DNA from: Deltaproteobacteria bacterium
GTDB taxonomy: Bacteria > Desulfobacterota > Syntrophia > Syntrophales > UBA5619
Direction of reading: 5' to 3'
Length of the DNA stretch: 41,184 nt
Assembly (NCBI GenBank): GCA_021372415.1
Contig: JAJFUM010000469.1
Coordinates: 1 to 41,184 of the forward strand
Shown here: one piece after another, positions 7,528 through 20,162 of the stretch
Position numbering within the stretch: position 1 is the stretch's first letter
Layout: every line of letters starts with the position of its first letter
The notes under the pieces: model-generated
What the model saw: the letters and a program-made list of their open reading frames with translations, nothing else
Databases searched by the model: none
Told to the model about the DNA's origin: nothing
Made by a program: the position numbers and the translations under genes

Positions 7528-10500
7528 CTACAGGCCTTTCAAGTAGCCGTCCATCGCCTCCTTCAAGCGGATGAACTGGGCCTCCAGGTCCGATTGGCGG
7601 GCCGTGGCTGATTCCAGGTTGCCGCCCTTGGCCGCCATCTCCATCTCGAAGGCCACGGCACTGAGGGCCTCGCCGCCCATGTTGGCGGACGCCCCCTTGA
7701 CGGTATGGGCCTGGCGCATGGCGCTCGGGGCATCGCCTGCCTCCAGGTAGCCCCGCAGTGCCGAAATCTGTTTGGGAAGATCCTCCAGAAATCCCCCGAT
7801 CAACTCGCGTGCCAGATCCTTATCGCCGCCCAGGCGGTCCATCATGGCCGGCATGTCGAACACCGCCCCCCCCGGCTTGTCCTTCCCGGTCAAAGTCTCC
7901 GGGATCACAGGGGCTGCAGGCGCACCGGACAACGGTTCCTTTCTTGCCGCGGGGTCCTTCGGCAGCCATCTGTCCAGGGCGTCGGCCAGGGCCTGGGATG
8001 AAACCGGCTTGGGAACATAGTCGTCCATCCCCGCGCTCAGGAACTTCTCCCGGTCGCCCTGCAGGGCATGGGCGGTCATGGCAATGATGGGAACACGGGG
8101 ATTGAGAACCGCAGACCGGGCATCGCGGACCCGCTGCGTGGCCTCTATCCCGTCCATAACGGGCATCTGGACGTCCATCAGGACCAGATCGTAGGGAATA
8201 GTCTGCAGGGCCTTGACGGCCTCGGCGCCATTGGCCACGGCGTCCGCCCGCAGTCCCATCCTCTTGAGCATGGCGATGGCCACCTGCTGGTTGGTGATGT
8301 TGTCCTCGGCCAGGAGGATGCGGACCACGCCCCGGCGCAGTTCGCGGACCCTGTGGCGCGTGATGATCGGTTGCGACGGTCGGGCCGCGGCCCGGTCGGC
8401 CAGCGCGATGGCCAGGCAGTCAAAGAGCTCCGACTGCCGCGCCGGCTTGGTCAGGTAAGCGGAAAAACCGATCCTCTCCATCTCCCTGGCGTCACCCCGC
8501 CGCCCCAGGGATGTCATCAACACCAGCCGGGTGTTGCTCAGGGCCTTGTCGCCCTTGACGGCCCGGCCCAGGGTGGCGCCGTCCATGCCCGGCATCTGCA
8601 TGTCGAGAATGGCCATCTGGAAAGGGTCGCCGGCGTCCCCGGCCCGACGGAGGGCCTGGAGCGCCGTTGGACCGTCCGCGGCCTCCTCCGAGCGGATCCC
8701 CCATGCCTGAAGCTGGCCCGAGAGCACCTGGCGGTTGGTCGCGTTGTCGTCCACCACCAGGACATGAGCCCCGCGGATGTCGGCCGGCGGTTCAAAACCG
8801 CGGTCCCGATCGGCCTGTTTGCCCAGGCGGACGGTGAACCAGTACTCCGAACCGCGCCCCTCTTCGCTGTTCACGCCGATCTGGCCGCCCATCCGCTCCA
8901 CGAGTTCCTTCGAAATGGCCAGGCCAAGGCCCGTCCCGCCGTATTTGCGCGTGATCGAGGCGTCAGCCTGCGTGAACTTCTGAAACAGATGTTCCCGCTT
9001 TTCCGCCGGAATGCCGATGCCCGTATCCTTGACGGAAAAGCGGATCACCACGTCGGCATCGGTCTCCGAGACGAGGCTGGCGCGGACGGCGATCTCGCCC
9101 CTGTCGGTGAACTTCACGGCATTCCCCGCCAGATTGGTGAGCACCTGGCGCAGGCGGCCGGGGTCGCCGCGGAGACCGCTCGGCACGTCCGGCGCCGCGG
9201 CACAGATGAATTCGAGCCCCTTGTCGTGGGCGCGCAGGGCCAGCATGGCGGCAAAGTCGTCAAGGAGGGCGCGCAGGTCAAAGTCCAGCGTCTCCATCTC
9301 GAGCCTGCCCGCCTCGATCTTGGAGAAGTCCAGGATGTCGTTGATGAGGGCCAGCAGCGATTCGCCGCTGTTGCGAATGGTCTCGGCGTACCGGCGCTGC
9401 ACCTCGTTCAACTCCGTATCCAGCAGAAGCCCGGTCATCCCGATCACGCCGTTCATGGGGGTTCGGATCTCGTGGCTCATGTTGGCCAGAAATTCGCTCT
9501 TGGCGGTGTTGGCCATCTCGGCCTGGACCGCCAGGTCCTTGGTCAGGGCCATGGCGGTTTCGAGCTGGCGGTTGGTTTCCAGGAGTTTCTCCTCCGCCGA
9601 CCTGCGCAGCAGCACCGTTCCGATGTGTGAGGCCATGGCCTCCAGGAGTTCGACCGTTTCGATGGTGAAACATCCCTTGCGCTTGTCGTTGAGCTGGATC
9701 AATCCCACAATGCCGTTCTTGTTCCGGATCGGCACCAGGGCCACAGAGGCGTAACCCTGAAGGATGCACCGGTTGCGCGGGTGATGCCGGGGATCCTTGT
9801 CGGGCGGGGTCTCCAGAAGCGGGGCGGCGTTGTTCGTCCAGAAGCTTCCCGCCGGCGTGAAAAGCGGGTCGGTCGGGTCGGTCCTGCCGGAGAGGACCAG
9901 ACCGCAGGTGCCCTCCAGAACGACGTTGCCGTTCTCGTCGCGGCATACGCCGCCGTCGACGGCCTGCTCGGCGAGCGTGTTTTCCGTCAGCAGGAAATCC
10001 TTGGGAAAGCCCTTCTGGGCCGCATAGGGGAAATCCTCACGGGATTTGAGTCGGATGCCTATGGCGTCGAAGCCGGTCCGCTCCTTCAGGACGGCGAGGG
10101 CGGCCTGAATGGAATGGTCCAGGTCTCCAGGCTCGTTGAGGATCTGCAGGACCTCCCGTCCCATCTCCCGGTACTCCTCCGCCCGCTTGCTCCTGGTGAT
10201 GTCCTGGTGAGTGCCCGACATCAGCAGGGGTTTGCCTTCTTCGCTCCATGTGGAAACGGAGCCTCGGTCCAGCACCCAGACCCACCGGCCGTCCTTGTGC
10301 CTCATCCGGTATTCGCACTCGTGGTAGTCCACTTCGCCCCTGAAGTGGCGCTCCATGAACCCCTGGCTGATCTTCAGGTCGTCGGGGTGGGTGTGGTCCG
10401 TCCAGGTGCGGATCGACAGGGGGGCCAGCTCTTCCAGCGTGTAGCCGATGATCTCGGCCCAGCGTTCGTTGAGGACGACCTCCCCGGTCTGGACGCTCCA

Positions 10501-13344
10501 TTCCCAGGTCCCCACATTGGTCCCCCGGATGATGCTGGTCAGGCGCCGGCGTTCCTCCTGCAGGGCTTTCTCCGCCTGCTTGCGCCGGGTGATGTTGATC
10601 ATGACCGAGAGCAGATATTCGTGCCCCCGGCTTCTGAACAGCTCTCCCGAGAAGAGTCCGGTGAGAATCCTCCCGTCCCTGCCCCGGACCTGCAGTTCGA
10701 TGACGCCGACGCGGCCCTCCGCCCGAAGCTTGTCCGCGATCTCGTCCATTTGCTCCGGCTGGGGGAAGAGACCGATCTCGGCGGCGGTCCTCCCGACGAT
10801 CTCCTCCCTGGCATAGCCGAGCCCCTTGAGGAAGGCATCGTTGACATCGGAGAACCGCCGTTCGGGAAAGGTGGAGAGGGCCAACAGGGCCGGGTTGTTC
10901 CTGAAGAGCCTCTCGAAGCGCTGCTGCGCCTCCTGTTCCTCGGTCAGGTCCTTGATGATATTAAAGAGGCAATCCCGGCCGCTCCACCGACCGAGCCAGG
11001 CGTGGATTTCCACCGGAACGAGGTCGCCATTCTGGCGGACGATGGGCACGGAAGAGCTCTCGCGCTCGCCCCGGCACATGGCGGCGAAGATCTCCTGGGC
11101 CTCCTGACGCCGATCCGACGGATGCAGATCCGCGAGGTGCATCCGGACGATCCGGTCGGGGCCGTAACCGAGCTTCTGCTCGAAGGCCTTGTTGGTGAAG
11201 AGGATCTGCCCCTGGGGGGTCGCCACGACGATCATGTCTTCGATGGTCTCGAAGAAGGTGCGGAAATTGACCTCGCTCTCGCGCAGGGCGTTCTCCGCCG
11301 TCAGCCGGTCCGTGATGTCGTAGTTGATGCCGATCATCCTGAGGGGCGCGCCGTCCTCGTCCCGGATAATGAGGCCGTCGGCCTTGATATGGCGGACCGC
11401 TCCCCCGGGCCGCCGTATCCTGAATTGGGTGTCGAAGGCCTTGACGCCGTCCAGGGCCATCCGGACCTCCCCATTGGCCCGGTCGACGTCGTCGGGGTGC
11501 AGGCTTCCGATCCAGGCGTCGTAGGCGCTGGCGAAGTTTTCCCTGCGGATCCCGTAAAGCCGGAACATCCCGTCATCCCAGACCAGGACGTTCGTCCTCA
11601 CCTCCCATTCCCAGACACCCACCCCGGCCGACTGGGCCGCCATGGTGAAACGCTCGTTCAGCCGGTGCAATTCCTCCGTCCGCTCGCGGACGCGGTCCTC
11701 CAGTTGAAGATTGACGGCCCGGTCGTCCATGATCTTCCGGCTCAAGGCCTCGCCCATCTGCCTGAAGTTCGCGATGAGTTGGGCCATCTCCTTGATGCGG
11801 GTCTCGGGCCAGGCGATGGACTGGCTCTGTTCGATCCGGTCGGGAAGGTCCTTGGAGATGCGGGCGAGTCCCGCCGGGGCGTTGGCCATCATCCGGCTGA
11901 TCGCCGTGGTGATGGCCAGGGTGAGGATAAAGAGCAGCGCCATGACCACCATGTTCCGGATCATCGCATCGAAGATCTCCTGCTGGACGGGGGCGACGGG
12001 GTACTCCACCAGCAGCGTCCATGAAGTCCCTTCGATGGGCATCCGCATGAAATAGTAGGCGTCCCTCCAGGCATCCATGACGCTGACGTTGATCCGGCGG
12101 CCGGGCACCTTGAGGAACACCCCGGGAATCGAGGTCTCCCTCTGATTCCAGGTGACATCCGGCAGGAAGTTGAGGACCCGTTTGTCCGGATCGGTGCTGA
12201 CGACGACGGCCCCCCGGCCGTCCAGGACAGTGAAATTCAACTCGCTGTGCCAGGAGATCTGGGCGAGCAGCAGGTCCAGTTGTTTCAGGTTGATGGCCCC
12301 CAGGCCGAACCCACGGAACCTTCCCTCCACGACGATCGGAGCAGCGATGGTAAAGATCGGCATGAAGACGCCGCCGCGCCCCATGAAGACATCGGACACG
12401 ACGGGCCGCAGCGTCGTTCTCATCCTCTCGTAGAAGGAGCGGTCGCTGAAATTCAGTCCGATGGTCGACTCCCCCTTCTCGTTGACGGGCGGATCGAATG
12501 CGACGGTGGTCCCTGACGCATCGAGCAGGGACATGTTGTGGAAGTCCGGCGCCAACCGCTTGATGCGCTGGAGCTCCCCCTGCAGCGACGCCGACGGCCG
12601 GAGCGGCCGCTTCTCGCCGAGGCGGGCCACGGCCTTCACCAGGGCCAGATCCTGGGAGAGGAACCGCACGATGATCCGTTCGATCTCCTTGGTCTCGGTG
12701 GCCAGCGTTTTTGAGGCCGTCCCGTGCCGGGACTTGATCTCCAGGTTGTTGACCAGGAAGAGCAGGCCGATCATCGGAACCATGAGGAAGGCCGTCGTGA
12801 CCTGCTGCAGGAGTATGGAGTAGGGAACCATCCGGGGGGCCGACTCGAGCCCCATCCAGCCCCGCAGGGGGACATAGGAGAGGATGATGCTGGCGATAAG
12901 GGCGTTGAAGACGCCGTTGAGGAACTGCTTCAGGAGGACGATCGAGGCGCTCTGGAGGCCCAGATGCATCACCCCGTCATAGAAGAAAAACACGAGCGGC
13001 GGGCCGATCAGGACCCAGAAGAGGGCATCGATCAGCAGGATGTTCTGTCTTCCCTGGCGGAGGGCCAGGCCGACCCATAGGGTTTCTGCGGTGAAGATGA
13101 CGATCGCATAGGGATGGCCCCAGATGAAATAGGTGTAGCCGGAGGCCAGAAGGGCGTTGGCCGCCCCCCACCAGACCCCGAAGAGCCCTACGGCAACGAG
13201 GTTGAAGATGCTTCCGAAGATGATGCTGACGCTGTAATAGGCGATCGGCAGGTCGACCCAGTTGCCGGCGAAACTGAGCAGCAGAAGCACGGCGGCCACC
13301 AGGACGATCCGTCCCCAACTTCGGTCTTTGCGTGGTTCAGACAT
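7528..13344 (-). CDS. Giant hybrid histidine kinase (Cache, PAS x4, GAF, HisKA, HATPase, REC x2, Hpt)
   Basis: This is a 1938-residue membrane sensor kinase. About residues 10-205 hold a multi-helix membrane block, followed by a dCache-like sensor (about 215-450) and another membrane helix (about 465-490). Four PAS domains begin near 566, 688, 808 and 933, and a GAF domain covers about 1065-1245. The HisKA box ([11 protein letters not shown]) places the phospho-His near 1289. HATPase motifs follow (GTGLGLAIS), then receivers with acidic clusters near 1529 and 1673 ([20 protein letters not shown]), and an Hpt domain ([13 protein letters not shown]) near 1881. All relay residues are present, so a full His-Asp-His relay to the two downstream receiver proteins is expected. 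The signal is unknown. The start is ATG after a weak purine-rich stretch. Confidence 0.92.
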
Positions 13345-13868: not shown

Positions 13869-14696
13869 ATGCAGATGATCATTTTCACGGATCTTGATGG
13901 CAGCCTGCTCAACCATGGGGATTACGCCTTCGCCAATGCGATGCCTTCGCTCGATCGGATCAAGGCATGCGGCATCCCGCTGATCATGACGACCAGCAAG
14001 ACCCGGAGGGAGGTCGAATGTCTGCAGGGGGAAATGGGGATCCGGGAACCGTTCATCGTCGAAAACGGCGGAGGGGTCGTGTTCCCCGGGGGCTATCAAA
14101 ATCCGCTGCTCGTGCATTCAGAACAGCATCAGGGCGATACCGTCATCGCCATGGGAACGACCTACGAGAGGGTTCGCGATTTTATGCAACAGGTCGGAAA
14201 ACGGTTTAACCTCAGGGGATTCGGCGACATGACGCCTGAAGAAGTCGCCGAACTCACGGGGCTTCCGATTGAGAGGGCGTCCAGGGCCAAGGTAAGGGAG
14301 TTCACCGAGCCTTTCCTCATGGAACGGCCCGAGGAGATCGGCCTCTTGAATGACCGGGCCCGGCAGGAGGGTCTGAAGGTAACCCGCGGCGGCCGTTTTC
14401 ATCACCTGATGGGTATCGGGCAGGACAAGGGAAAGGCCGTCCGAATGGTCCGAGATCTTTTCCGGCCGGGCGCCGGGGAAACGTTGAAGGTCATCGGCCT
14501 CGGCGACAGCGAAAACGATCTGGCGATGTTCGAAGAGGTGGACATCCCCGTGCTGATCCCCCGCCCGGGGGAAGGCCATCTGGATGTCCAGTTTCCGGGA
14601 TTGGTTCGTGCCGCGGAGCCGGGGGCGAAGGGATGGAATGGCGCCGTTTGGAGGCTCCTGAATGAAACCATCGGGCCGGCAAGGGAGGATTCCTGA
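13869..14696 (+). CDS. HAD phosphatase, mannosyl-3-phosphoglycerate phosphatase family
   Basis: The 275-residue protein is a Cof-type HAD hydrolase close to MpgP/MggB, which removes the phosphate from sugar-3-phosphoglycerates to release the compatible solute. Motif I is FTDLDGSLL (Asp8, Asp10), motif II is in MTTSKTR with the adjacent PFIVENGGG signature typical of the MpgP branch, motif III Lys lies in GQDKGKAV, and motif IV is GLGDSENDL. Length fits the family. AAAAGGA precedes the start. It is followed 16 bases later by a glycosyltransferase and then by a GpgS-type synthase. This context makes glucosyl- or mannosylglucosyl-3-phosphoglycerate the likely substrate rather than mannosyl-3-phosphoglycerate. 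Confidence 0.85.
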   Translation: MQMIIFTDLDGSLLNHGDYAFANAMPSLDRIKACGIPLIMTTSKTRREVECLQGEMGIREPFIVENGGGVVFPGGYQNPLLVHSEQHQGDTVIAMGTTYERVRDFMQQVGKRFNLRGFGDMTPEEVAELTGLPIERASRAKVREFTEPFLMERPEEIGLLNDRARQEGLKVTRGGRFHHLMGIGQDKGKAVRMVRDLFRPGAGETLKVIGLGDSENDLAMFEEVDIPVLIPRPGEGHLDVQFPGLVRAAEPGAKGWNGAVWRLLNETIGPAREDS

Positions 14697-14712
14697 ACGA
14701 GAGGGGAATGAG

Positions 14713-15969
14713 ATGACGAAGGTGACAAGGTTTTCCACAGCGTTGAGGCCGCATGTTACGGCGAAGATCGAACAACTTGGCTATGCGGACATTGTCATTG
14801 GGATCCCCGCCTACCACAGCGCCGGGTCCATCGTCCATGTCATCAAGACCGTCGTCCGCGGGATCGAGCGGTACTATCCCACCCTCAAAGCGGTCATCAT
14901 GGTTTCCGACGGGGGATCGACCGACGATACCAGGGATTTGGCCCGCACGGTGGACCCAAAATCCTACAACATCGAACTGATCGTTACCATCTATCGGGGC
15001 ATCCCCGGCAAGGGATCGGGATTACGGGCCGTTTTCGAGGTGGCCGCCTTCCTCAAGGCCAGGGCCGTGACCGTTTTCGATTCGGACCTTCTGTCGATCA
15101 CCCCGGAATGGATCCAGAACTTTCTGGAACCCGTCTTCTCCGGTTACGACTATGTGGCACCTCATTACGACCGATACAAACTCGACGGAACCATCACGAA
15201 CACCATAGCCTACAACCTGACGCGGGCGCTTTACGGCATGAGGGTCCGGCAACCGATCGGGGGGGACTTCGGTCTCTCCCCTCCCCTGGTCAAACACTAC
15301 CTGGACCAGGATGTGTGGGCCACGGACATCGCCAAGTTTGGAATCGACATCTGGATGACCACGTCGGCCATTGTGGGAGGATTCCGGATCTGCCAGGCCA
15401 AGTTGGGCGCCAAGCTCCACGACCACAAAGACCCCTCCACCGACCTGGGGCCCATGTTTCGCCAGGTGGTCGGCACCACGTTCCTCCTGATGGACCAGTA
15501 CCACGACCACTGGGCGAAGATTCGGGGATCGGCGGAGCTCCCTGCCCTGGGAGAGTTCAGCGGCTCCGAGGCGGAGGCCTTCGACATCGACCAGGCCAAC
15601 CTCATCGAGTATTTCAAGGTCGGTCTGAACAATTTCCACGGCGTCTGGAAGAACATCATTGAAGGACGCGACCTGAAGATCGTCGAGGAACTCGCCCGGA
15701 GCGACAGGAATGATCAGTTCCTCATGCCGATCGACACTTGGGTCCGAATCGTCTACCGGTATGCCATCGCATTCCACCGAACGCCACGGCAACGCTTTAA
15801 AGTCCTCGACACCTTGACCCCGCTCTACTATGGGCGGGTCGGCTCGCTGGTCAACGAACTGAGGGACAAGACCCCGGAGGAAGCGGAGGAGCATTTTGAA
15901 CAAAACGCCCTGGTATTCGAAACCATGAAAGACTACCTGGTCGAGCTTTGGGAAGGAAAGGAGCAATAG
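14713..15969 (+). CDS. GT-A glycosyltransferase, candidate mannosylglucosyl-3-phosphoglycerate synthase
   Basis: The 418-residue protein has the GT-A fold signatures of a family 2/81-like transferase: IGIPAYHSAG at the start, VSDGGSTDDT (near residue 65) for nucleotide binding, GKGSGLR, and a DXD motif in FDSDLL (near residue 122). PIGGDFGLS resembles the GT81 acceptor region. There is no transmembrane segment, which fits synthesis of a soluble solute. It lies between a HAD sugar-phosphoglycerate phosphatase and a GpgS homologue, with tight spacing. In the two-step mannosylglucosylglycerate pathway known from Petrotoga, GpgS, MggA and MggB act in order; this protein would fill the MggA place. 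Donor and acceptor are inferred. AGAGGGGA precedes the chosen ATG. Confidence 0.75.
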   Translation: MTKVTRFSTALRPHVTAKIEQLGYADIVIGIPAYHSAGSIVHVIKTVVRGIERYYPTLKAVIMVSDGGSTDDTRDLARTVDPKSYNIELIVTIYRGIPGKGSGLRAVFEVAAFLKARAVTVFDSDLLSITPEWIQNFLEPVFSGYDYVAPHYDRYKLDGTITNTIAYNLTRALYGMRVRQPIGGDFGLSPPLVKHYLDQDVWATDIAKFGIDIWMTTSAIVGGFRICQAKLGAKLHDHKDPSTDLGPMFRQVVGTTFLLMDQYHDHWAKIRGSAELPALGEFSGSEAEAFDIDQANLIEYFKVGLNNFHGVWKNIIEGRDLKIVEELARSDRNDQFLMPIDTWVRIVYRYAIAFHRTPRQRFKVLDTLTPLYYGRVGSLVNELRDKTPEEAEEHFEQNALVFETMKDYLVELWEGKEQ

Positions 15970-15971
15970 CC

Positions 15972-17180
15972 ATGCCGGATTTTTGCCAGAATGGCGTCAT
16001 CACGACCCTTCAGAAGTTGAGGGAAAGACCGGTCGAAGAGATCGAAAGGGAGCTCAAGGCGATCGCGCGGAAACGCAAGATGGTCCTCCTGCTTCCCGCC
16101 CTGGTGACTGAATTCGACGGCACGGCGATGCCCAGGATCATTGAGGAACTCAAAGGGGTGGATTATCTTGACCGGATCGTCCTGTCCCTGGACCGAGCCG
16201 ATGAGAGGCAGTTCCGCAGGATCCGAAAGATCATGTCGGTGTTGCCGGCTGAGGTACGGGTGGTTTGGCATGATGGACCCAGGCTCCGGAAGCTCCTGAA
16301 AGAGCTGATGGCTGCGGAATTCAACCTGGAAAACGCGGGAAAGGGCCGCTCCGTCTGGATGTCTCTCGGATACATCCTTTCAGACCAGGATATCTACGCC
16401 GTCGCCCTGCACGACTGCGACATCGTCAACTACAAGCGGGAACTCGTGGCCCGCCTGATCTATCCGGTCGTCCATCCGGCGGTCAATTTCGAATTCAGCA
16501 AGGGGTACTATGCCAGGGTCACCGACAGGCTCTTCGGGCGTGTCACCCGCCTCTACTATACCCCCCTGGTCCGCACCCTTCAGAGGATCTTGGGTTACAA
16601 CGCCTTTATCGAATACCTCAACAATTTCCGTTATGCCCTCTCCGGTGAATTTGCCTTTGACGCCGGCCTGGCCAGGGGCATCCGCATATCCCCCACCTGG
16701 GGACTGGAGGTCTCGCTGCTCAGCGAGGTCTACCAGAAGACCTCGGTCAACCGGATCTGCCAGGTTGAAATCATCGAGACCTACGAACACAAGCACCAGA
16801 TCCTCGAGAAAAGCAAACCCACCGAAGGCCTGATCCGCATGGCGACCGAAATCGGCAAGGCCCTGTTCAGGGTCCTGAGCCAGGACGGCCTCGTGATGAG
16901 CGACGCCTTTTTCCGGACCCTGCTGACGACCTACATCCAAGAGTCCAGAACGGCCATCGAGAAGTATCACGCCCTGGCCCTGCTCAACGGCCTGATCTAC
17001 GACCGGCATGAGGAGATCGAGGCGGTTGAGGCCTTTGTGAGCGCGATGAAGCTGGCCATCGATGAATTCGTCGCCGATCCCGTCGGCATTCCCATGATGG
17101 CGGCCTGGGTCCGGGTCGAAGCAGCCATCCAGGATTTCTCCGAGAGGCTCAAGGAAGCCGTGGAGGAGGACAACCGATAG
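15972..17180 (+). CDS. gpgS: Glucosyl-3-phosphoglycerate synthase (GT81)
   Basis: GpgS transfers glucose from an NDP-glucose donor to 3-phosphoglycerate, the first step to glucosylglycerate-type compatible solutes in the cytoplasm. The 402-residue product resembles the cyanobacterial and Persephonella enzymes as I remember them: LLLPALVTEFDG, VDYLDRIVLSLDRAD, GKGRSVW, the metal site LHDCDIVNY (near residue 148), FEFSKGYYAR, and the late segment TYEHKHQ. AAGGAG precedes the ATG, which lies 2 bases after the stop of the preceding glycosyltransferase, indicating translational coupling. The comparison is from memory and not computed, but several motifs agree, so the call is firm at family level. 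Confidence 0.85.
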   Translation: MPDFCQNGVITTLQKLRERPVEEIERELKAIARKRKMVLLLPALVTEFDGTAMPRIIEELKGVDYLDRIVLSLDRADERQFRRIRKIMSVLPAEVRVVWHDGPRLRKLLKELMAAEFNLENAGKGRSVWMSLGYILSDQDIYAVALHDCDIVNYKRELVARLIYPVVHPAVNFEFSKGYYARVTDRLFGRVTRLYYTPLVRTLQRILGYNAFIEYLNNFRYALSGEFAFDAGLARGIRISPTWGLEVSLLSEVYQKTSVNRICQVEIIETYEHKHQILEKSKPTEGLIRMATEIGKALFRVLSQDGLVMSDAFFRTLLTTYIQESRTAIEKYHALALLNGLIYDRHEEIEAVEAFVSAMKLAIDEFVADPVGIPMMAAWVRVEAAIQDFSERLKEAVEEDNR

Positions 17181-17301: not shown

Positions 17302-19044
17302 ATGTTTCATATTAGACGGATCTTCGACGACATCCTGCCCAGAAACCGCCGGGCCATTGAACAGATCCAGGGGATTCTGGGATCCCAGCTCAAGGGCCTG
17401 AGCCAGTCCCATATCGCCAAGATACCGGACCTTCTAAGAAATCCTTTCAAGTACGACTTCCGCTCCACTCTCTACGTCGCCGAGACCCAGGGTACCGGAA
17501 AGGTCAGGGGGTTCGCCCTCCTGTCCCACGAACCGGCGATTCACTTCTGTTATCTGGACTACCTGGCCACGGACCGGGAGACCATCGGCAGGGGTATCGG
17601 CAGCGCCCTCTACGAAAGGGTCCGTGAAGAATCGGTCCTGCTGCAGGTCGATGGGCTGTTCTTCGAGTGTCTTCCCGACGATCCGGCCCTTAGCCGGAAC
17701 CCGCAGATCCTCAAACAGAACCGGGCTCGCCTGAAATTCTACGAATCCTTCGGCGCACGTCCCATCGAAGGCACGGCCTACGAAACGCCATTAAAACCCG
17801 AGGGTGACAATCCGCCGTACTTGGTCTTTGACGGCCTCGGGCGGACCGTCGTGCCCCGGAAGGCGTATCTGCGCGGGGTCGTCGAGACCATCCTCGAGAA
17901 AAAGTACCGCGGGGTGTGCAGCAAGGCGTACATCCAGATGGTCCTTGCATCCATCCGGGATGATCCCGCCCGGGTCCGGGAACCGCGTTATTTCAAAAAA
18001 CAGTCGGCGGCCGTCTTCCCGGTGTCGGGATTCTTCGGCAGGATCGCCCTCGTCGTCAACGACAACCATGCCATACACCATGTCCAGGAGAGGGGATACG
18101 TGGAGGCGCCGGTTCGAATCCCTTCGATCCTGGACGCCCTTGGGCAGACCAATCTCTTCTTGAGATTCCCGGCGAAAGAATTTTCGGAAAAGCCCCTTCT
18201 GGCCGTTCACGACTCGGAATATCTCCGCTATTTCAAACGCATCTGCGAGAAGATCCCGCCGACTTCCTCCGTGTACCCTTACGTATTCCCCATCCGGAAC
18301 CGGGCCCATCCCCCGCTGGAGTTGGCCGTCCGCGCCGGATACTACTGCATCGACACCTTTACGCCGCTGAGCAACAATGCCTTTATCGCCGCCAGAGAAG
18401 CGGTCAAGTGCGCCCTAACGGCCGCGGAGAAGATCATCGGCGGATTCCGTATTGCCTACGCCCTGGTTCGGCCGCCGGGGCACCATGCCGAACGGAACGT
18501 TTTCGGAGGATTTTGCTACTTCAACAATGCGGCCATTGCCGCGCATCACCTGAGCCAGTATGGTCCCGTGGCCATGCTGGATGTCGATTATCACCACGGG
18601 AACGGCCAACAGTTCATCTTCTACAGACGAAGCGACGTCCTGACGGTTTCCATCCATGGGCATCCTTCCGTGGCTTATCCCTACTTCAGCGGTTTTGCCA
18701 ATGAACGGGGCGAGGGACCCGGCAATGGATTCAACGTAAACCTCCCTCTGCCCGAGAGCACGGAGGCCAGTGTCTATCTGGAAACCCTGTCCAAGGCCCT
18801 GTCCCATATCCGCCATTTTCGTCCCCGCTATCTGGTTGTCTGTCTCGGCCTGGACACGGCCAAGGGGGATCCGACCGGATCATGGGGTCTGCAGGGCAAA
18901 GATTTTGCGGAAATGGGCCGTAGCATCGGGGCGGCAGGCCTCCCGACCCTCGTGGTTCAAGAGGGCGGCTATCGAACGCGCACGATCGGAAGCAACGCCC
19001 GATGCTTCTTTGAGGGCCTCTGGAACGGCATGTTTGCCCGATGA
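17302..19044 (+). CDS. GNAT acetyltransferase fused to histone-deacetylase-family amidohydrolase
   Basis: The 580-residue protein joins two opposing activities. About residues 1-160 form a GNAT domain with the acetyl-CoA loop GRGIGSALYERV (near 100) and a later FYESFGARPIEG strand. About residues 240-575 form a class II HDAC/acetylpolyamine amidohydrolase domain with RPPGHHAERN (His pair near 394-395), FCYFNNAAIA, the zinc ligands in DVDYHHGNGQQ (near 427), and GFANERGEGPGNGFN. All expected catalytic residues appear to be present in the second domain. One chain could therefore acetylate and deacetylate the same amine or Lys target. It follows the solute-synthesis genes after 121 bases. Substrate unknown; a polyamine, amino-acid osmolyte or protein Lys are possibilities. 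The ribosome binding site is weak. Confidence 0.85.
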   Translation: MFHIRRIFDDILPRNRRAIEQIQGILGSQLKGLSQSHIAKIPDLLRNPFKYDFRSTLYVAETQGTGKVRGFALLSHEPAIHFCYLDYLATDRETIGRGIGSALYERVREESVLLQVDGLFFECLPDDPALSRNPQILKQNRARLKFYESFGARPIEGTAYETPLKPEGDNPPYLVFDGLGRTVVPRKAYLRGVVETILEKKYRGVCSKAYIQMVLASIRDDPARVREPRYFKKQSAAVFPVSGFFGRIALVVNDNHAIHHVQERGYVEAPVRIPSILDALGQTNLFLRFPAKEFSEKPLLAVHDSEYLRYFKRICEKIPPTSSVYPYVFPIRNRAHPPLELAVRAGYYCIDTFTPLSNNAFIAAREAVKCALTAAEKIIGGFRIAYALVRPPGHHAERNVFGGFCYFNNAAIAAHHLSQYGPVAMLDVDYHHGNGQQFIFYRRSDVLTVSIHGHPSVAYPYFSGFANERGEGPGNGFNVNLPLPESTEASVYLETLSKALSHIRHFRPRYLVVCLGLDTAKGDPTGSWGLQGKDFAEMGRSIGAAGLPTLVVQEGGYRTRTIGSNARCFFEGLWNGMFAR

Positions 19045-19115
19045 TCCGTGGCCAGCAACGCCTGTGATCCAAGGTCATGTGGAAAATGGTGGACGAAACA
19101 CGACAGAGGGAATCG

Positions 19116-20162
19116 ATGGACACCAAATTGACACTCGGCGATGTGGAATGCGTACGCCTTATCCTGAGGGGGGGAACCGTGATCGACTGGAGGCGATTGA
19201 ATGTCTCCTCAATCAATGATTGTACTGAACTGCTCCGCGCCAATGAATTCGATCCGGAGGACGGGCGTGACGCCGCGCGCCTGTCTGACATCCACCGCAA
19301 AGCCGTCGATTACCTTGAACGCAACTTCGCGGTCACGTTTGCCAATGAAGTTGCCAACGCCCCAAGGACGAGTGACCTCATGCTCCTGGCTGCCGGCCGC
19401 GATCGGACGCTTCAACCTCAGGCATGCATGGTCCTGAAGCTCATGCATATCATCAATCATATCGAGGCACGAGAACTGCGCGCCAGCCTCCCCGTCTCCA
19501 ATCATGACCTCTTTCAACTGGCTGAGGAGAAAGCGGCACGTGTCGTCCAGGAAATGAAGGCACGGGGATTCCCCATATTGGAATTCCTGGTCAGCCAGAA
19601 AACACGGGACTCCCTGATCACAAAATTTCTTGGGAAAAGACAGACCATCCGGGCGCATATATACGATCGGGTCCGTCTGCGCATCGTGACGGCATCCGTT
19701 AATGACATCGTTCCTGTCGTCTTGTATATGAGCAAGCATCTCTTCCCTTTCAATTACACGGTGCCGGGTGAAAGCCACAACTCGATCTTCGACTTTTCGG
19801 CCTTTAGCAAACTTCACCCACGCATCAAAGAGATGGTGCCTGATTTCCAGATCGACCTGAAATTCGAGAATGAGATGCGTCCGCCGGCAAACGAGAATAC
19901 CCCGGATGTCTATCGAACGATCAACTTCGTCGTGGATCTGCCCGTCCGGCTCGACAAGCACCCCCTACGGTCCCTCGACCCATCGGCCTTTCCAGCCATC
20001 GTTCATGTCTCCACCGAGTTCCAGATCGTGGACCGGGTTTCTCATGCCAGAAACGAGTGCGGTGAAGCGAGCCATGCGAGGTACGAGGCCCGCCGCCTGG
20101 CGAAGGTCCGGGAACGCCTTCTCCATGGGAGGATGAAGTGGCGTGGCACAGACAGCACGTGA
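19116..20162 (+). CDS. Conserved protein with RelA/SpoT-synthetase-like motifs
   Basis: The 348-residue protein has no assigned function that I can state. Its C-terminal two thirds echo the RelA/SpoT nucleotidyltransferase fold in order: YDRVRLRIV (near residue 183), like the Rel strand that carries the catalytic Asp; FNYTVPGESHNSI, at the place of Rel's DYI...PK.NGY.S block; and EFQI followed by ECGEASHARYEA, at the place of EIQIRT...AE.G.AAHW.YK. The usual Lys and Tyr residues are not conserved, so activity is uncertain. I recall an uncharacterised family of this kind in Deltaproteobacteria (TIGR04552 is my best guess from memory, unverified). AGAGGGA precedes the chosen ATG; an in-frame start 13 codons earlier is possible. 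It lies between the GNAT-HDAC gene and a kinase-like gene. Confidence 0.65.
   Translation: MDTKLTLGDVECVRLILRGGTVIDWRRLNVSSINDCTELLRANEFDPEDGRDAARLSDIHRKAVDYLERNFAVTFANEVANAPRTSDLMLLAAGRDRTLQPQACMVLKLMHIINHIEARELRASLPVSNHDLFQLAEEKAARVVQEMKARGFPILEFLVSQKTRDSLITKFLGKRQTIRAHIYDRVRLRIVTASVNDIVPVVLYMSKHLFPFNYTVPGESHNSIFDFSAFSKLHPRIKEMVPDFQIDLKFENEMRPPANENTPDVYRTINFVVDLPVRLDKHPLRSLDPSAFPAIVHVSTEFQIVDRVSHARNECGEASHARYEARRLAKVRERLLHGRMKWRGTDST

Follow-up and report, generated by a model that had tools for sequence, protein, structure and literature searches.

A GNAT-deacetylase fusion protein and its association with a lysine 2,3-aminomutase-like, ATP-grasp and GNAT operon in bacteria

Why should a single polypeptide carry both an acetyltransferase and a deacetylase, and what do the two halves act on? 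The question is raised by a gene (17302..19044, + strand) in a deltaproteobacterial window, that is, the whole stretch of 41,184 nucleotides analysed here. The open reading frame starts with ATG and encodes 580 amino acids. The Pfam analysis revealed Acetyltransf_7 at residues 55-151 (E 1e-6) and Hist_deacetyl (PF00850) at residues 267-571 (E 1.2e-72). The AlphaFold2 model of the full chain, based on 81 sequences, has a pLDDT of 87.5 and a pTM of 0.85; residues 1-235 modelled alone reached a pLDDT of 92.6. On the + strand, the gene encodes a GNAT domain (residues 1-183, 17302..17850), a linker with two predicted helices (residues 184-245, 17851..18036; pLDDT below 50 at residues 236-242), and a deacetylase domain similar to the acetylpolyamine amidohydrolases (ApaH; residues 246-580, 18037..19041). 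The sequence-only reading had placed a GNAT and a complete HDAC-type domain on one chain, and this was borne out by the Pfam matches, the confident models and the fold comparison.

The C-terminal half has the arginase/deacetylase fold with the Asp-His-Asp zinc ligands, the double His and the Tyr, as in the PF00850 deacylases. The zinc ligands D429 (18586-18588), H431 (18592-18594) and D518 (18853-18855), the H394/H395 pair (18481-18486) and Y557 (18970-18972), all on the + strand, are invariant in 81/81 sequences; we take these residue roles from the ApaH alignment and from general knowledge of the family. Further invariant residues of this half are D351, F353, E397 and W528. The N-terminal half superposes on GNAT enzymes over about residues 1-183 with Z 14-16 (Foldseek, VIA-align), which corresponds to a complete GNAT fold, and a PDB sequence search with this half (189 aa) gave no match at E 1 or less. 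The two halves are equally conserved, with a mean column conservation of 0.723 (residues 51-165) and 0.724 (residues 246-580), and both domains are complete. To judge from their residues, both halves look active.

The usual motif A of the GNAT enzymes is Q/R-x-x-G-x-G/A. The Q/R position is not kept in the fusion (column 95 is T in 45/81), which is a weak point for activity. This loss might suggest that the GNAT half is a regulator only, namely an acetyl-CoA-binding sensor steering the deacetylase; however, the motif-A glycines G98 and G100 (17593-17601, + strand), the F146-Y147 pair and the strand F-E-C-L-P-D-D are invariant in 81/81 sequences, and a sensor role is considered very unlikely.

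A scan of genome contigs confirmed 241 relatives of the fusion, of which the best 80 were kept; this set was ranked by score and is therefore biased towards close relatives. All of these 80 aligned from residue 1 (one from residue 7) to at least residue 573, with 55-84% identity. The search for the same fusion in other genomes, proposed in the sequence-only reading, thus recovered it near full-length in the best 80 of 241 relatives, in many bacterial groups. Deltaproteobacteria-type record titles were the commonest; the others include Chloroflexi, Calditrichaeota, Omnitrophota, Acidobacteria, Planctomycetota, Spirochaetes, Bacteroidetes, Bacillota, Lentisphaerae and Myxococcales, among others. 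Individual taxon labels may be wrong, because most of these genomes are metagenome-assembled. Two named strains were found among the 80, Desulfoferrobacter suflitae DRH4 (L028) and Desulfacinum infernum DSM 9756 (L044).

In the phylum sample (297 genomes), the full fusion was present in 28. An independent profile of the GNAT half matched the same 28 genomes and no others, each time in an open frame of at least 577 aa, and a GNAT half separate from the HDAC half was not seen in this sample (28/28 fused). A further genome (G324) has an HDAC match only, which starts from residue 251 and shows 40% identity. Among relatives of the window's genome, the fusion was found in only 3/41 genomes (own genome counted). 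The fusion is old and not a one-off.

The genes upstream of the fusion in the window suggest solute synthesis. They encode an MPGP-family HAD phosphatase (13869..14696, TIGR01486), which is a lineage-specific neighbour; a GT2 glycosyltransferase (14662..15969) with weak similarity to glucosyl-3-phosphoglycerate synthase, whose listed start overlaps the preceding gene; and a GpgS_Meth-like protein (15948..17180; 318 bits, model cut-off 700), all on the + strand. The fusion gene starts 121 bp behind the GpgS-like gene, and a TIGR04552 family protein (19077..20162, + strand) is encoded 32 bp downstream of the fusion. Relatives of the three upstream genes were found at 4/80 loci (L006, L007, L027, L072), and the solute-synthesis genes were rejected as the main context. 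At E 1e-8, none of the other 80 loci had a relative of the TIGR04552 protein. A Pfam survey of the nearest neighbours, covering 121 of 122 proteins (the 1576-aa ORF of L076 was left out), gave raw counts of four matches each to MscS, MarC and CitMHS, and an osmotic-stress neighbourhood is only weakly indicated. One further protein cluster lies near the fusion at 8/80 loci (L011, L027, L029, L041, L045, L047, L072 and L073), likewise a raw count; its L027 member is an MscS-type channel according to Pfam.

Neighbour clustering and HMM searches showed a different recurrent partner, an operon of a lysine 2,3-aminomutase-like enzyme (KamA), two tandem Ddl-like ATP-grasp ligases and a GNAT of about 165 aa. 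The comparison of neighbours suggested earlier therefore led to this core operon and not to the solute genes. One or more core genes lie close to the fusion at 34/80 loci, and KamA, ATP-grasp and GNAT occur together at 27/80; both counts are lower bounds, because many loci stop at a contig edge. The core genes and the fusion overlap or are separated by gaps of a few bases at many loci. With K for KamA, g for ATP-grasp and T for the operon GNAT, at least five gene orders were found: K-g-g-fusion-T, K-fusion-g-g-T, K-g-g-T-fusion, fusion-g-g-T-K and g-g-T-K-fusion. Moreover, the operon GNAT is joined to the C-terminus of the fusion at 6/80 loci (L062, L063, L070, L071, L083 and L084), giving a triple fusion GNAT-HDAC-GNAT. 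Fusions of the types g-T and g-g also occur within the core operon (L106, L107, L116). At L055 (9661-11151), next to a GNAT-HDAC fusion, the operon GNAT shares its chain with a domain of the arginase family (PF00491, E 2.6e-67). The N-terminal GNAT and the operon GNAT are only distantly related (hhalign 94.7%), so neither arose from the other by recent copying.

The distribution across genomes agrees with this linkage. The ATP-grasp profile A1, at a cut-off of E 1e-62 or less, matched 119/297 genomes of the phylum sample: 28/28 genomes with the fusion versus 91/269 without it (Fisher p 9e-13, inflated by shared ancestry). The figure of 91 may be too high, because some single matches near 260 bits may represent a further ATP-grasp subfamily. 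For example, G001:C14, G006:C59 and G008:C38 hold single ATP-grasps located away from the tandem pair; these score about 255-280 bits with A1 and perhaps belong to another subfamily. Two or more A1 matches were present in 27 of the fusion genomes, and one in G117. The profile of the operon GNAT (A3) matched 96/297 genomes, including 27/28 fusion genomes (absent in G176).

A second sample comprised 46 fusion genomes, which represent 45 of the 80 loci plus the window's own genome; the two samples overlap, as G078 and G117 of the phylum sample share coordinates with G026 and G016 of the second. Two ATP-grasps within about 2 kb were found in 40 of the 46 (the second one of G001 is split in two), and at least one match of at least 230 bits in 44. 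The exceptions are G004 and G015 with no ATP-grasp of at least 230 bits, G005, G010 and G016 with one, and G040 with two on different contigs. Among the 41 relatives of the window's genome (own genome counted), 32 have the ATP-grasps and 3 have the fusion, and all 3 are nested among the 32. In addition, 13 of 17 stretches from fusion-less genomes hold KamA with ATP-grasps (one fragmented, one cut by a contig end). The fusion follows the core operon, and many genomes with the core lack it. In a Mantel test at 28 loci, fusion and KamA distances correlated with r 0.59, reached by 0/2000 permutations, which fits shared genome descent and is not proof.

The window's own genome (G000) also has the core operon, on a contig other than that of the fusion; the assembly consists of 477 contigs with 6.4% contamination, which weakens the placing of both loci in one genome. 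It encodes KamA (G000:C110:425-1738), ATP-grasp 1 (G000:C110:1922-2953), ATP-grasp 2 (G000:C110:3104-4093) and the operon GNAT (G000:C110:4499-5011). A lost fusion copy between the ATP-grasp and the GNAT was considered and rejected, as the gap encodes a small DUF486/DMT_6-like membrane protein. In the window's genome and order, such a protein separates ATP-grasp 2 from the GNAT (L094:4093-4499, L098, L100 and L101), and it could be a transporter of the product. Only for the L100 copy was the assignment made by Pfam; comparable frames were recognized by eye in L094, L098 and L101, and not in L114.

The enzymes of the core operon point to a lysine-derived product. The best PDB match of KamA is the lysine 2,3-aminomutase 2a5h (E 1.9e-177). 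The positions of Asp293, Asp330 and Arg134 of 2a5h, which we take to bind lysine, are invariant in 18/18 KamA sequences. Two KamA proteins scored 492.5 and 489.1 bits against the AblA model, just under its cut-off of 525.4. The NCBIfam matches of two operon GNATs included no AblB model, which is presumably part of the library. The operon GNAT family includes 2r7h of Desulfovibrio desulfuricans (E 3e-56), named by its depositors a putative D-alanine N-acetyltransferase, which is not fused, unlike some of the operon GNATs. The ATP-grasps have Ddl matches in the PDB and 14 invariant columns, including K148, E188, R269, D271, E284 and N286, which presumably agree with the catalytic residues of Ddl. 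Ddl is an ATP-grasp relative by profile; whereas the operon ATP-grasps occur in tandem with KamA and GNAT, and mostly score about 235-420 bits with A1, versus about 108-204 bits for the remaining matches.

Two known pathways are somewhat similar. The synthesis of N-acetylglutaminylglutamine amide (NAGGN) uses an amidotransferase and a GNAT-ATP-grasp protein, and the ATP-grasp-GNAT fusions of the core operon at L106 and L107 resemble it by analogy only. According to the available parts of PMC1224877 and PMC3543383, an aminomutase and a GNAT make N-epsilon-acetyl-beta-lysine, a known solute of methanogens that has also been proposed to occur in Pelobacter carbinolicus. The AblA/AblB pathway described there (PMC1224877) shares a lysine 2,3-aminomutase-like enzyme and a GNAT with the core operon; however, the core has two ATP-grasp ligases, a different GNAT (near 2r7h) and the deacetylase fusion. 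The KamA likeness, the ATP-grasps, the GNAT and this known solute together suggest an acetyl-bearing beta-lysine amide or peptide as the likeliest class of product.

What, then, might the deacetylase half remove acetyl groups from? In both sequence and fold, this half is nearest to the acetylpolyamine amidohydrolases, which gave the best fold matches (TM on target 0.85-0.91). The fusion could thus be a polyamine switch, with the GNAT acetylating and the ApaH-like domain deacetylating putrescine, cadaverine or spermidine. According to the available part of PMC11532494, the features of polyamine deacetylases include Arg95 in the L2 dimer loop, residue 106 where this loop ends (Glu106 in the M. 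ramosa enzyme, His106 in that of Pseudomonas), and a gate with a PIS motif. The equivalent residues were counted by hand from an alignment to 3q9b and 9gkz. Arg95 corresponds to R332, which is kept in 81/81 sequences. In contrast, the Glu106 position is A342, in a column with P, A or S in 72/81 (P 38, A 23, S 11, L 4, T 2, V 1; 79 of the 81 shown), and the PIS position is P524-T525-G526, invariant in 81/81. Glu117 of 3q9b, which we take to be a polyamine-gate residue of ApaH, is replaced by F353, with Phe in 81/81. The cluster 4 ApaH enzymes (9gkz, 6phr, 3men and 3q9b) therefore share with the fusion the fold, the zinc site, the His pair, the Tyr and the L2-loop Arg95; whereas the fusion adds an N-terminal GNAT and does not keep E106, E117 and the PIS motif. 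An ApaH fold without the polyamine-specific residues disfavours polyamines as substrates, and the protein should not be classified among the polyamine deacetylases. The arginase-family domain fused to the operon GNAT at L055 speaks for a polyamine switch; however, the fusion accompanies a lysine aminomutase operon, and the polyamine switch is regarded as quite unlikely. The sequence-only reading had hinted at an osmolyte or polyamine target from the upstream solute genes. A lysine-derived small molecule is plausible as the target; the solute genes recur too rarely to support the hint, and the lost polyamine residues disfavour a polyamine.

The target might also be a lysine on a protein, for example on a pathway enzyme, acetylated by the GNAT and deacetylated by the HDAC domain. 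The fold of the GNAT half is near RimI, Ard1 and GCN5, among others, and an example of the cluster 4 ApaH deacetylates some peptides and acetylated BsAcsA as well (PMC11532494, available part). However, the peptide-restricting dimer loop of the ApaH enzymes, as far as described in that part, seems to be kept in the fusion (R332), and a protein switch is thought to be decidedly unlikely.

As the fusion travels with genes of a beta-lysine type pathway, its probable role is to tune the acetylation of a small molecule that this pathway produces. The explanation tentatively preferred here is that the fusion is a bifunctional, optional accessory of the core operon, which would reset the acetylation of a beta-lysine-derived small molecule. 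KamA would convert lysine to beta-lysine, the ATP-grasp ligases would couple beta-lysine through amide bonds, and the operon GNAT would acetylate the coupled product. The HDAC domain might then strip the acetyl group, placed by either the operon GNAT or the GNAT half of the fusion, from an amine of the product or of an intermediate; whereas the N-terminal GNAT could put the acetyl back or move it, on the same or another amine. In this way the cell might alter the charge of the compound or recover it. It is possible, though somewhat unlikely, that the single chain adds and removes the acetyl of one beta-lysine-containing compound, made by a core operon found across many phyla, as a writer-eraser, for reversible control of a solute or signal.

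A protect-deprotect cycle was also considered, in which the N-terminal GNAT would mask one amine of beta-lysine, the ligases would couple the other, and the HDAC domain would unmask the first at the end. Such a cycle accounts for a writer and an eraser on one chain without a futile cycle, and is consistent with the shared operon and the triple fusions. However, the core is also found in genomes without the fusion, as counted above for A1 and for KamA with ATP-grasps, so unmasking by the fusion cannot be obligatory, and the cycle is judged unlikely. For the same reason the fusion is dispensable for making the product, which favours tailoring or turnover by the optional accessory proposed above.

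Neither type of domain is remarkable in itself; what is unusual is their constant union as writer and eraser, and its tie to an operon of beta-lysine type that has no name. To our knowledge, the partners and substrates of bacterial HDAC-type enzymes are mostly unknown. Here the deacetylase is joined to a GNAT, and operon structure, fusions and phylogenetic profile link it to defined enzymes, so that a small number of purified proteins would allow its substrate to be tested. Should the product of the core operon be a beta-lysine compound, this would reveal a metabolite that is widespread and has no name, together with its reversible acetylation. A keyword search of titles and abstracts found no published account of the fusion or the core operon; an earlier description of the core operon may exist in Iyer et al. 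2009 (amidoligases). In PMC11532494, on bacterial deacylases, 'fused' occurs 0 times and 'GNAT' 3 times, and its available part mentions no GNAT fusion. As far as their available parts go, PMC10227436 concerns separate red-algal proteins, and PMC4685198 a different acetyl-lysine solute, with no link to the fusion.

Some minor observations concern the window and its genome. PADLOC gave no anti-phage defence match for the fusion or the four core proteins. Further HDAC-like genes of the window's own genome are located at G000:C311:9353-10048, C325:5789-6361 and C180:17803-18297, and match the HDAC half of the fusion only. On the minus strand of the window, a 1938-aa ORF (7528-13344) reads by eye as a multi-PAS hybrid sensor histidine kinase.
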